The position numbers were made by a program, and so were the translations under genes. A DNA stretch of 64,000 nucleotides from Actinomucor elegans (Eukaryota; Mucoromycota; Mucoromycetes; Mucorales; Mucoraceae): positions 2,046,001-2,110,000 of the forward strand of contig JAMSLZ010000005.1 in the NCBI GenBank assembly GCA_026027325.1, written 5' to 3'. Positions 3,298 to 9,791 of this stretch are shown piece after piece. A model generated the notes under the pieces. That model saw nothing but the letters and a program-made list of their open reading frames with translations. It was not told the origin of the DNA and made no database searches. Position 1 is the first letter of the stretch. The number at the start of each line of letters is the position of its first letter.

Positions 3298-4531
3298 TTA
3301 AAAATCAATATCTGCATTATAAACGCCAACCATGATACTTAGACCTGCTAATGTACAGCCTGATAATATGACCAAAACTTCTTTGGCAAAATCTTGTTTA
3401 TACCAGTTGATGCGGCTTGCGTTCGGTTCAGCGATGCAATAAAATGCGTACATTGGAAACGAAATAGCATAGATAAACTGGAAAATTACCCATCTAAAAA
3501 AATTATAGTTAGCCTCATAAAAACATCCAACTAGACTATACTTTACAGATAGAAATGATTAGCAAATGTAACTAGCGCATTTCCACCAGCATGAAGACCT
3601 GCAGCAATGTATAATATTGCGATATTAGAATGTACAGGTTCCTTGACATGATACTGAGGCTTTTTGGGATCATCATTTACTTCAAACCGTCCTTGCTGCA
3701 TTTGTTGAACTAATTTATCACATTCCTGAGCATATTCATCATTTGATTCGTCATCTCCGTCATTTGGTATCAAAGTACCAACACTAGCCTTGCCATGGAT
3801 AGCTTTATTATGATAGTAGAGTCTGCCTAGGTCAATACATAGCGCAAAATCAGTTGCAAGACCTTGAAACTTGAAAAAAAGTGCATCAAGCGGCCAAGGC
3901 ATGATAATAACTAGAAACATGGTAACTAGCAAGTAGATAAAACAAGTAGCGACGAAATTCCGATCCCTACAAATCAAAAATTTAGTTACATACCACCGTA
4001 CAACATGCTATTTACACTTTACAACAACGACTTCTGTCTAAACACAATATTGGAGAACAAGGCAATTTCAAACAAGTTGTGGAATACACCAAAAGAGGCC
4101 CAAATCCTACCAACGCTCATGACTGAAAAAGTGAAGGTGGCAAAAAAAGTAGAAATCAAATAAGCAAGCACAAGACCATTGAAAGCTCCAATGGAACGGC
4201 GACCGCGAGGCACTGATGGCAAATAAATGATAGTAATATGGAATATGGCAAACACTGTAGCTACTGCAATGGTAACAACTGAAAATATTGTTGTAGCGTT
4301 AAACGCGTCATCATTATAATCTAAAGACTACATTAAACGCGCGTCCTGTTGTCTATCTCTCTCTCTTTTTTTTTATATATATATATATCTACCTTCAATA
4401 TCTGCTATCCATGTTGGGATTGAAAATAATTTACTCAAATATCTGTTTGGCGCATTTGGGATCTCTGATAGCCATTTGGCCTCAACTAACCCGAGAACAC
4501 CCAGTAAGATTAATGCGATTGCTTTATACAT
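3298..4531 (-). CDS. seven-TM-like integral membrane protein with signal peptide, unknown
   Basis: Four exons, complement(3298-3493, 3547-3966, 4023-4320, 4393-4531), give about 350 aa in a continuous frame. The N-terminus is a short hydrophobic leader ending in VEA, followed by a 40-residue, probably luminal stretch with an N-A-T-T glycosylation sequon. About seven hydrophobic segments follow, in a GPCR-like spacing. Between segments lies an acidic loop (GDDESNDEYAQECDK region) and a PKKPQYH stretch. The C-tail is very short and ends in D-I-D-F. I do not recognise the family; a fungal seven-TM receptor or transporter-like protein are both possible. It is tail-to-head with the CofD-like gene on the same strand. 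Confidence 0.7.
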
Positions 4532-5191: not shown

Positions 5192-6291
5192 ATGACTACC
5201 ACTGACAAAATCACTGTTCTCTTAAACTGGAAGGCTACTCCTTATCATTTGCCTCTCTTCTTGGCATCCAAGCTTGGTTATTTTACTGAGGAAGGCATTA
5301 AAGTCGCCATCCTTGAGCCCAATGACCCTTCTGATGTTACCGAAATCATCGGCTCTGGAAAGGTTGACCTTGGTCTCAAAGCCATGATCCATACTATTGC
5401 CGGAAAAGCCCGAGGTTATCCCATCAAGTCCATCGGTACCCTTTTGGATGAACCTTTCACAGGTGTGATCCATTTGAGTCACAAGAGTGGAATTACCAAG
5501 GACTTCAAGTCTCTTCGCGGTAAACGTATTGGTTACGTTGGCGAATTCGGCAAGATCCAATTGGATGAATTGACAAGTCATTTTGGTATGACTCCTAATG
5601 ACTACGATGCTATTCGTGTTGGTATGAATGTAACTGACTCTATCATTCGTGGTGATATTGATGCCGGTATTGGCATCGAAAACGTTCAACAAGTCGAGCT
5701 CGAAGAATGGTCTGTCCAACAAGGAAGATCTCGCGATGATGTCCAAATGCTTCGTATCGATGAATTGGCAGAATTGGGCTGTTGTTGTTTCTGTTCGGTA
5801 AAGTAGATCTGTTGGCTCGCTGTATATAAAAGAAGCTAACCTTCTCCTATTTCTTCTAGATTCTTTACATTGGTAATGAGGAGTTTATCAAGAACAACCC
5901 TGAAAAGGTTGAAAAATACCTTCGTGCCATCAAGCGTGCTACTGATTATATGGTTGCTGATCCTGTTGATGCTTACAAAAAATACACTGAGATGAAGCCT
6001 CACTTGGACTCTGATATCAACCGCAAAATCTTCCAAAGATCTTTCCGCTACTTCTCTCGTGATCTTAAGAATGTTGAACGTGATTGGAACAAGGTCACCA
6101 ACTACTGCAAGCGTCTTAACATTGTTGACGCCTCTTTCAACCAAAACCAAACCAACGAATTCTTGACTTGGCCCTTGCTCCCCGAATCTCAACCTGGTGT
6201 TGAGCCTCCTACTGTTGAAACTGGTGTTGTAGATGGTGGTTGTTCCCGCTGCCACCATAGCAGCATTGCCCAGCCTGAAATCTTTGTTTGA
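5192..6291 (+). CDS. THI5: 4-amino-5-hydroxymethyl-2-methylpyrimidine phosphate synthase (THI5/NMT1)
   Basis: Two exons (5192-5797, 5860-6291) encode 345 aa. The family makes the pyrimidine half of thiamine from a histidine of its own chain and pyridoxal phosphate, and is therefore a single-turnover enzyme. The sequence shows the conserved GLKAMIH block with Lys63 and His67, matching the PLP-binding Lys and donor His of the yeast protein. The iron-binding CCCFC motif lies just before the intron. [18 protein letters not shown] and [10 protein letters not shown] blocks are also conserved, so the enzyme should be active. The C-terminus carries a Pro/Gly tail and a CSRCHH stretch. The stop codon abuts a strong GTAAGT splice donor, and a TPP aptamer lies 190 bp further on, so expression is very likely thiamine-controlled. 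Confidence 0.96.
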
Positions 6292-6483
6292 GTAAGTTTT
6301 TTTCTTTCAAATAGTAATATTTATATTTCAAACTTGTATACTAACCATCTCTGACTGCTAACGTTTTTTTTCTTTTTTTTGTATTTATTTCAATTTTCTT
6401 TTCATACAATCTATACTAACTCTTATATACTATACCCCTCACTTACTTTCATATTCTTTTCTGACCTTATTGAATAATAACAG
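6292..6483 (+). other. predicted 3'-UTR intron of THI5
   Basis: GTAAGT begins at 6292, the base after the TGA stop. A CTGAC branch-site match sits at 6461-6465, and the AACAG acceptor ends at 6483. At 192 bp it is longer than most introns in this window. The acceptor G (6483) and the next two bases can pair with 6592-6594 in an extension of the aptamer P1 stem, coupling splice-site access to ligand binding. This is inference from sequence; no transcript was seen. Confidence 0.7.
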
Positions 6484-6594
6484 GTCAACGCTAGGGGTGC
6501 CTTGAATTTGTTCTAAACATGTTCGTGTAAGGCTGAGATCTTAAACCCTTAATTACCTGATCAGGCTAGTACCTGCGAAGGGAAGCGTTGGACC
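6484..6594 (+). promoter_or_regulatory. TPP (thiamine pyrophosphate) riboswitch aptamer in THI5 3' UTR
   Basis: All hallmark blocks of the THI element occur in order. P1 is CAACGCT (6486-6492) with AGCGTTG (6584-6590). P2 is AGGGGT (6493-6498) with ACCCTT (6545-6550). P3 is GCCTT (6499-6503) with AAGGC (6529-6533). The pyrimidine-sensing loop CTGAGA is at 6533-6538. The pyrophosphate-sensing arm begins ACCTGATC, has P5 CAGG/CCTG (6562-6565 with 6572-6575), and ends GCGAAGGGAAGCG. Fungal TPP riboswitches are best known from 5' introns of NMT1 and THI4; a position after the stop codon resembles plant THIC instead. A likely poly(A) region (TATAATAAAAAA, about 6620) follows. Confidence 0.94.
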
Positions 6595-6796
6595 TCTTAA
6601 TTCTTCAATATCCTTTTATATTTATAATAAAAAAGTCTTGAAGTAATTGTTGCAATATAACATACGTTTTTCTTTTCTACTTCGTTAAATGTGTCCATAA
6701 GTTGTGTATTCTTCAAAGCCTAACAATTTGAGCCTAAGAGAATTTTCTCAGGTTCCCCTCCCCTCCTGAATTCTGTTTTTTTTCAACGTTTTTACA

Positions 6797-7497: not shown

Positions 7498-9791
7498 CTA
7501 TGGGGCATCTTTGGGACAAATAATTTCCTTGTAATCTTTGATAGTGCCAGAAAACTTGTTGAGAACACCGCCTTCACAAATCCAAATCTCATTACAAACA
7601 GTATTAATAAATCTTTCATCGTGAGAGACAATAATAACACCACCGTTGAATCGGGCAAGGGCTTCTTGCAATGCATCCATGGACTCCATATCCAAATGGT
7701 TAGTAGGTTCATCAAGCACCAAGATGTGAGGGTTTTGCATACTAAGACAAGCAAAAGCGACACGCGACTTTTGACCACCAGACAATGTCTTCATGACTTG
7801 AAGACCCACCATACCAGTAATACCAAAAGAACCCAGATGGCGACGATATTCCTCTTCAGTTTTACCAGGGAAACGATCAGCCATGAATCCGACTGCATTC
7901 TTTGTCAAATCCAGTTGATCAATATGATGTTGTGTAAAGTAGGCGATACGAAGACGGCCGTTTCTATGCACTGTACCAGAAGAAGGCTTGTTCTCTTCTG
8001 TTAGTAATTTCAACATGGTAGATTTACCAGCACCGTTAGGACCCACAACAGCAATACGGGAATCCATTCTCAAATCAATATTGACGTGACGAATAATAGT
8101 TTTTTCAGGGCTGTAGCCAAAAGTGACTTCAGACATTTGAAGAATAGGTGGTGATAATTGATCTGCTTCAGGGAATTGAAAGGTAATCAGCTTTTCATCC
8201 TCAGGAGGTTCCAAGATAGGCAACTTCTCCAAGATCTTAATCTTGGATTGTGCTTGAGGAGCACGCTTAGCATTATATCTCCAGCGATCAATAAAGTCTT
8301 GAAGATGTTTACGATATTGCTCTTGAGATTCATATTCTCTGAGTTGGGCTTTACGACGTTCTTGCTTGGTGGCATGGAAGTTTGTAAAGTTACCCTTGTA
8401 GTAATCCAATTTCTCGGAGTGCATGTATAAAATATCAGTAGCTACTTCGTCCAAGAATTCTCTGTCGTGAGAAACGACAAGCAGTGTATTTGTCCAGGAT
8501 TGGAGATACTTTTCCAACCAAACAATGGCAGGGATCTAACATAGAAAGTGAATAACTTGGTCATTGCATATCAAATCAACCTACATCCAACATGTTATCA
8601 GGTTCATCAAGCATCAAAACATCAGGTTTACAGAACAAGGCACGAGCAAGAGAGATTCTCATTCTCCAACCACCAGAGAACTCTCGTGTAGGTCTCTTTT
8701 GTTGGGCAGCATCGAAACCGAGACCTGCCAAAATAGCAGAAGCTTTACTCTCAGCCTTGTCACTCTCAATTTCAGAAAGTTTACTAAAGACTTCTTTCAG
8801 CTCAGTGTTCAATTGATCTTTGTCGGCTTCCAAGGATTTCTTTTCTTCTTCACTTAGTTCATCATCCTCTTCCTGTTCAGCTTCAATGGCATTAATTCTA
8901 GCTGACAACTCACGTTCTTTTTCAAGTAAATGTTCACGCCAAACATCAGCACGAAGCACCATTTCAATTGCAGGTGTATCATCGCCTACAACCTATGATA
9001 AAAAAAAAAAATAGGTAAGAAAACGCATATTGCTGTATACAACAATGACTTGCCTCTTGCTCAACATAAAGAATAGAGATATGCTGAGGTACAGCAATTT
9101 CACGACGCGACATGGCTCTCAACAAAGTAGATTTACCAATACCGTTTTTACCAACAACACCATAACGTCTACCAAAGGCAATAGTCAAATTGGCGTCTGT
9201 CAAAATACGACGACCAGCAAACGAAATATCGAAATTTTCGACCTTGATATCCTTGTTCTTTCCTTTGGTGGTAGTGTAATCCAAGATAGGATTGTATAGT
9301 TTGTATTCTTCCTGCAAAGCTTTCTGTTCGTTCAACAAACGCGAGGCTTCGTATTCAACCTTGGTGTTATTTCTTTCATTACGCTTAGCCATCTTGGCCG
9401 CAATCTTGGCTTCAGCCTTACGTAATTTCTCTTGGTTGACCTGCGACTGAATACGACGACCTGAAGCATGTTCCAAATCAACTGTACCTCGACCGAGACT
9501 GGACGTGGCCGAGATACCATTTTGACTGCCCATAGTGAAAGAATGCTCGAGCTTGGATAGTTTGGCAGGTGCAGCAGCTTTTTGGTTGGCCTGTAAAAGT
9601 TTCGATAAATGGTCGCATAGCTCATCAATTTTATCCTCGTCACCACCCGCGTCAATCAAAATGGGCTTGATGAAATCAGCAATAGCATCTTCATCGTCTT
9701 CAAAGTCGTTTTCTCGGAGATAACCATCAATGTATTCAATGATGGCTTCATCAGCCCCGGGAACTGCCTTTCTAATGAGTTGAATGGACAT
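7498..9791 (-). CDS. GCN20: GCN20 / ABCF3 ATP-binding protein, translational control
   Basis: Three exons, complement(7498-8535, 8585-8992, 9054-9791), encode 727 aa, normal for Gcn20/ABCF3. This soluble ABC-F protein works with Gcn1 on ribosomes to activate the eIF2 kinase Gcn2 when uncharged tRNA accumulates. The N-terminal 200 residues form the Gcn1-binding, charged region. NBD1 has Walker A GKNGIGKST, the signature SGGWRMR and a Walker B reading LDEPDNMLD, the Asn-Met variant typical of ABCF3/Gcn20. NBD2 has GPNGAGKST, LSGGQKSR and LDEPTNHLD. The charged linker between NBDs carries the R-Y-N-A-K-R-A-P-Q-A-Q-S segment. The first intron (8993-9053) must use a GC donor (GAG|GCAAGT) to keep the frame. 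It shares a 212-bp divergent promoter with eIF3l, another translation gene. Confidence 0.96.

Follow-up and report, generated by a model that had tools for sequence, protein, structure and literature searches.

Does the THI5 gene of Actinomucor elegans carry a TPP riboswitch behind its stop codon and, if so, which step of gene expression could such an element control? TPP has been called the sole riboswitch ligand convincingly demonstrated in eukaryotes, as excerpted from PMC12335538. Fungal TPP switches have so far been described mainly as 5'-UTR or intronic elements. We investigated the question in a window of 64,000 nt (contig JAMSLZ010000005.1, positions 2,046,001 to 2,110,000 of the forward strand; positions below are those of the window unless a locus is named) and in the 36.5-Mb genome to which it belongs.

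THI5 (NMT1/THI5-like, HMP-P synthase) spans 5192-6291 on the plus strand as two exons. Exon 1 (5192-5797; PF09084, 5.7e-54, and gene model) and exon 2 (5860-6291; PF09084, 3e-8) are separated by a 62-nt coding intron (5798-5859) placed by the genome-trained gene model, and the joined protein aligned with 14 relatives without a gap at this junction. The frame closes at TGA 6289-6291, which we took as the true end of THI5 because, in the alignment, five of the six nearest relatives (P0001-P0006) stop no more than one residue away from it, P0005 being shorter. The closest protein among the matches listed was that of Mucor hiemalis (92% identical, from a database clustered at 90%). Only one NMT1/THI5 copy was found in the genome, namely the present one, and the reading as a paralogue or repeated copy was rejected.

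Covariance search (cmscan) revealed a TPP riboswitch aptamer (RF00059) at 6483-6600 on the plus strand, in the 3' UTR of THI5 and in sense orientation behind the stop codon, with 62.4 bits against a gathering cut-off of 54.3, an E-value of 7.3e-10 and a full-length match (model positions 1-105 of 105); the Rfam search of the window up to E 1 returned nothing besides this aptamer. Alignment and fold indicated that helices P1-P5 are present and that the CUGAGA (pyrimidine) and GCG (pyrophosphate) motifs, named here after excerpts of PMC9544697, are intact. The complete aptamer that the original prediction had placed past the THI5 stop is thus confirmed, as are its positions for TGA (6289-6291), GTAAGT (6292-6297), CTGAC (6461-6465) and AACAG (6479-6483), and the match is not a product of chance. 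We regard the place, class and gene of the aptamer (3' UTR, TPP, THI5) as nearly certain. It is a real 3'-UTR TPP aptamer and probably a riboswitch; it is likely to work as a TPP switch, an estimate that we did not set higher because of the diatom precedent discussed below.

The original prediction had itself named the possibility that this element is the 5' leader of another gene. The next gene, encoding an ABC-F ATPase (7498-9791, minus strand; PF12848 and PF00005, with top NCBIfam matches that are ABC-F-like and under their cut-offs), is convergent, and the plus strand between 6292 and 7497 contains no ATG ORF longer than 36 aa. We therefore rejected the leader assignment, and hardly any gene other than THI5 can own the aptamer.

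We extended the RF00059 search to the whole genome (E up to 10; scoring covered 49 of 1029 first-look candidates, a scope in which more distant aptamers may be missed) and obtained three matches, all three of them after a stop codon on the sense strand, with P1 starting 195 nt (THI5), 133 nt (THI4) and 198 nt (a sugar porter) past the stop. The THI4 match follows the PF01946 gene of locus L005 (stop at 4095, P1 from 4229). The sugar-porter match lies on the minus strand of locus L004 behind a gene with PF00083 and TIGR00879 domains, and the next same-strand gene, a PF01384 phosphate transporter, starts 877 nt beyond the aptamer. At 49.2 bits (THI4) and 52.9 bits (sugar porter), both score just under the cut-off of 54.3, and we accepted them nonetheless on account of their gene neighbours. 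These two matches strengthen the 3'-end placement originally claimed for THI5; every one of the three sensors found comes after its gene, an arrangement suggestive of control at the mRNA's tail end. On the reverse complement of L004 (4707-4722), a tandem GATGATG stands at the 3' side of the sugar-porter aptamer, and pairing of its copies with GCATCA or with an upstream ATCATC would be another possible strand exchange. In each of six bacterial Thi5 loci (L029-L034; 47-56% identical), from Chlamydiales, Gammaproteobacteria, Myxococcota and Pseudomonadota MAGs, a TPP match precedes the gene in the same orientation (6/6), that of L031 slightly under the cut-off and that of L033 about 2.4 kb upstream. 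The CCCFC motif is present in five of these six relatives, and the sixth is cut at CCCF.

The P1 helix of the THI5 aptamer can be extended well past its core. The core strands, 6487-6492 and 6584-6589, form six of six standard pairs; beyond the bulged G6590, the extension strands (6472-6486, containing the acceptor AG, and 6591-6603) add five of five pairs at 6482-6486/6591-6595 and, in the RNAfold structure of 6470-6605, outer runs of three (6478-6480/6597-6599) and four pairs (6472-6475/6600-6603), for a potential total of 18 bp. P1 had been said to overlap a possible 3' splice site; it does so with two pairs more than claimed, and both acceptor AG bases are therefore paired. Compared with flank shuffles, this extension ranked above 98.5% (P 0.015 for flanks of 16 nt, 0.014 for 12 nt and 0.027 for 8 nt). 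Similarly, P1 could be extended in all three aptamers, with 16-nt P values of 0.041 for THI4 and 0.031 for the sugar porter beside that of THI5, and combined Fisher values of 0.0014 (16 nt), 0.0076 (12 nt) and 0.13 (8 nt), the flank lengths being our own choice.

The helix thereby meets a candidate 3'-UTR intron (6292-6483), whose GTAAGT donor (6292-6297) starts at the first base past the stop and whose AACAG acceptor (6479-6483) lies, at 6483, exactly at the foot of the aptamer. We scored it with a gene finder trained on 282 kb of the same genome (74 genes; 214 introns, median length 58.5), which recovered the THI5 and THI4 introns under all three penalties; we worked with -12, as both alternatives brought in many introns of weaker consensus. 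On this scale, approximate since the reference introns are predicted and not sequenced, the donor ranked at the 24th percentile, the acceptor (score 2.71) at the 16th and the intron as a unit at the 25th among the 214 model introns, in which CAG acceptors are a minority (C at -3 in 21/214). The pair 6292-6483 scored highest among those with a donor no more than 60 nt past the stop. Of 62 control 3' flanks, taken from the 74 predicted genes (score at least 40, CDS at least 450 nt, 400 nt downstream, the three TPP genes excluded), 11 matched or beat the intron and 4 had a donor at least as good as 6292 within 60 nt of the stop. Because of these controls, the splice sites, plausible as they look in sequence, are not significant by themselves and do not exceed chance.

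Other features of this region were considered. The T-rich, AG-free stretch before the acceptor (6315-6481; 167 nt, with 16 runs of at least 165 among 33,322) was dropped as strong intron evidence, since local base composition alone gives a P of 0.11. A distal acceptor at 6751, strong by eye, was dropped as well (trained matrix 2.12, under that of 6483); a speculative one, the AG at 6634-6635 just beyond the poly(A) signal, scored 2.91, close to 6483. Within aptamer stem P3, a donor-like GTAAGG (6527-6532) scores slightly over the 6292 donor.

Between stop codon and aptamer, neither THI4 nor the sugar porter had a donor above the 1st percentile; splicing of the THI5 type is therefore not common to all three genes. 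The THI4 3' UTR has an acceptor 63 nt past the stop, at the 94th percentile, and 2 of the 62 controls were as good. This acceptor, TATTCTTTATTACAG, ends at 4158 (L005 4144-4166), and joining it to the last coding intron's donor, a weak one, would truncate Thi4 at ...PRMV. On its exon side, GTTTGAAG is complementary to CTTCGAAC of the aptamer (region 4144-4166, 4273-4280), and CACTTTTGGTGCC in the last THI4 exon (3993-4005) is complementary to GGCACTAGGGGTG of P1/P2 (best duplex P 0.02). Splicing may possibly occur in both THI5 and THI4, though not in one pattern.

We examined whether P1 would hide the acceptor, as had been proposed for the ligand-stabilised helix, by folding pieces of different length. 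The local piece 6470-6605 had a z of -2.41, equalled by 2 of 200 shuffles, whereas the 361-nt piece 6280-6640 (z 0.06) was not more stable than its shuffles and contained the aptamer in the centroid and not in the minimum-energy structure. In two short pieces, 6440-6610 and 6440-6660, P1 was complete without forcing, and forcing altered nothing. The predicted folding state thus depends on the piece chosen. A second partner for the acceptor lies at the candidate branch site CTGAC (6461-6465), where AGGTCA (6482-6487) has a possible complement in TGACCT (6462-6467); within 6250-6750 there are two copies of GACCT, one to either side of AGGTC. Because of this second partner, the acceptor G was paired in both model states, with or without the aptamer forced, and was never free. 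Hiding the acceptor would therefore be no switch in itself, and that part of the original prediction finds no support in the folding model.

The model predicted an exchange of partners: in three of four longer pieces, forcing the aptamer made the acceptor leave the branch hairpin and join the P1 extension (in piece 6292-6610, the extension already held the acceptor at 0.75 before forcing), and the unpaired probability of the branch A increased in all four pieces extending upstream of 6440, from 0.09-0.51 to 0.38-0.66. Forcing P1 and P2 cost 4.5-4.8 kcal/mol in two longer pieces, an amount that ligand binding could plausibly cover. The 6-bp branch/acceptor hairpin was rejected as special in itself (shuffle P 0.05; an equally long stem in 27 of the 214 model introns), and long-range pairing of CTAACG plus poly-U (6357-6373) with the 3' strand of P1 was not significant, the best duplex, which is another one, having a P of 0.315.

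Our preferred reading, for which we see the case as evenly balanced, is that 6483-6600 is a THI5 3'-UTR TPP riboswitch whose long P1 alters 3'-end processing, most likely via the intron. Plentiful TPP would bind the aptamer and lock P1, which could then extend into the 18-bp helix; this helix would take in the acceptor at 6483 and release the branch region, and 3'-end processing would be altered. Most likely, the 3'-UTR intron would then either stay in the mRNA or be spliced out at a more distal AG, with a concomitant shift in how the poly(A) signal, 36 nt past P1, is used, and the THI5 mRNA would become less stable or 3'-extended, yielding less enzyme. In this scheme we infer TPP binding, the splicing of 6292-6483, the sign of the effect and the controlled step. 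That acceptor-linked splicing is the main controlled step is a tentative assignment. We would be equally cautious in viewing the lengthened P1 as a two-partner switch through which TPP might govern both splicing in the 3' UTR and the choice of poly(A) site; this would add one more mode of eukaryotic riboswitch control to the fungal 5'/intronic and plant 3' modes already known, with an origin independent of plants.

Poly(A)-site control without splicing would give the aptamer another target: the TPP-bound aptamer and its long P1 would alter cleavage, polyadenylation or decay, and the apparent intron would be a chance occurrence. AATAAA was the hexamer most enriched in 3' over 5' flanks (45/62 against 20/59, the three TPP genes excluded). 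The first one past the THI5 stop (6626-6631) lies 36 nt behind P1, and in THI4 the distance is 24 nt; for any one site, the probability of an AATAAA within 40 nt by chance is about 0.09. This layout of an aptamer followed at 24-36 nt by AATAAA is common to THI5 and THI4, whereas the donor is not, and the sugar-porter aptamer sits between two AATAAA, at +106 and +458. However, the THI5 signal is located outside P1 and its exposure is not clearly better in either state (unpaired 0.24 free, 0.33-0.34 with the aptamer forced), and 3'RACE in Phaeodactylum, whose P1 overlaps a predicted poly(A) site, gave no substantive thiamine effect (PMC9544697, in excerpt). Control of 3'-end formation without splicing thus appears somewhat unlikely, though we rate it nearly as high as splicing control because of the AATAAA layout common to THI5 and THI4.

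A switch of the plant THIC type, the mechanism of which is described in excerpts of PMC10226581, would have the aptamer cover the 5' splice site at low TPP; when TPP is high, 6494 or an AG beyond it would serve as the acceptor, and this splicing would remove the poly(A) site and lengthen the 3' UTR. The THI5 layout recalls this mechanism, with a candidate donor right after the stop, the aptamer behind it, an AG at the start of P2 (6493-6494), which is the acceptor used by plants and green algae according to excerpts of PMC9544697, and an AG at 6635 just past AATAAA, the use of which would remove the signal. However, the best duplex between the aptamer and upstream sequence was not significant (P 0.315), none of the six best duplexes covers the donor 6292-6297, and the P2 AG has a weak acceptor score of 1.08. 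Furthermore, AATAAA is absent between donor and aptamer, where only an AATAAT occurs (+181), and first appears at +334; this is a weak test, as a poly(A) site can also do without AATAAA. We consider this mechanism improbable here, and the description of the element as plant-like is not upheld. Just as improbable is a relict or non-responsive aptamer like the diatom ones tested in PMC9544697 (in excerpt): the THI4 and sugar-porter aptamers do score under the Rfam cut-off, but that of THI5 scores over it with CUGAGA and GCG intact, aptamers stand on both classic fungal targets, and P1 is extendable three times.

A literature search of titles and abstract openings, among the matches listed, did not find any account of fungal thiamine genes under TPP control from the 3' UTR. 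New here is the presence of TPP aptamers in the 3' UTRs of thiamine genes of a fungus, and all three aptamers found in the genome are 3'. Their shared location implies that TPP control can move to another place, and perhaps to another mechanism, with the same ligand and target genes. The three genes offer natural constructs for the study of 3'-end riboswitch control in fungi.

Among known systems, plant THIC was rightly cited in the original prediction as a case of 3'-UTR control, but it is not the only one: excerpted accounts place 3'-UTR TPP aptamers also in diatoms (PMC9544697), in Micromonas and Aureococcus, including on SSUA/THI5-like genes (PMC4260697), and in Postia placenta (PMC5882874). 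THI5 of A. elegans resembles plant THIC in having a 3'-UTR aptamer on an HMP-P synthase gene, a candidate donor upstream and an AG at the start of P2; it differs in the gene itself, in lacking a significant aptamer complement to the donor, and in an AATAAA that is found first behind the aptamer and not between donor and aptamer. The algal aptamers share the 3'-UTR location, whereas the algal THI5-like genes are single-exon (PMC4260697, in excerpt). The tested diatom THIC aptamer looks good and, in the excerpted results of PMC9544697, gave no thiamine response; its P1 overlaps a predicted poly(A) site, whereas here P1 is followed by AATAAA after 36 nt in THI5 and 24 nt in THI4. The Postia placenta aptamer likewise occupies a fungal 3' UTR, but on eIF5B, a non-thiamine gene, as one case on two gene copies (PMC5882874, in excerpt).

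With the fungal Type I-IV TPP riboswitches, as excerpts of PMC5882874 present them, our aptamers share the ligand class and the genes THI5/NMT1 and THI4. Those types occupy the 5' UTR or an intron of the coding region, whereas the three aptamers found here lie behind the stop codon, and the 5'-UTR or coding-intron placement with alternative donors of Types I-III does not describe the THI5 aptamer. A parallel in P1 behaviour is Neurospora NCU01977 (Type II), in which a P1 strand is likewise exchanged between two partners; there, a donor-side element pairs with the 3' strand of P1 (PMC5882874, in excerpt), whereas in THI5 the 5' extension could pair with either the branch site or the 3' flank of P1.

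Earlier surveys have touched on related fungi. The excerpted 2018 survey (PMC5882874) mentions one NMT1 riboswitch in a Mucor. The 2024 survey (PMC11683625), in the parts excerpted, associates aptamers of Mucor irregularis and M. lusitanicus with ABC-type ATP-binding proteins that have no membrane segments, and places sugar-porter aptamers (TPPsw-SUGAR) in 5' UTRs. These are probably the same loci as ours, matched by gene context and not by sequence; the survey names the ABC gene as the target, whereas here the aptamer near the ABC-F gene and that of the sugar porter lie 3' of their likely target genes. From this gene context, the survey probably credited a THI5 3' aptamer to its ABC neighbour, which suggests that surveys can misplace the target gene of an aptamer, a matter of some consequence since the antifungal targets under discussion include TPP switches (PMC11683625, in excerpt).
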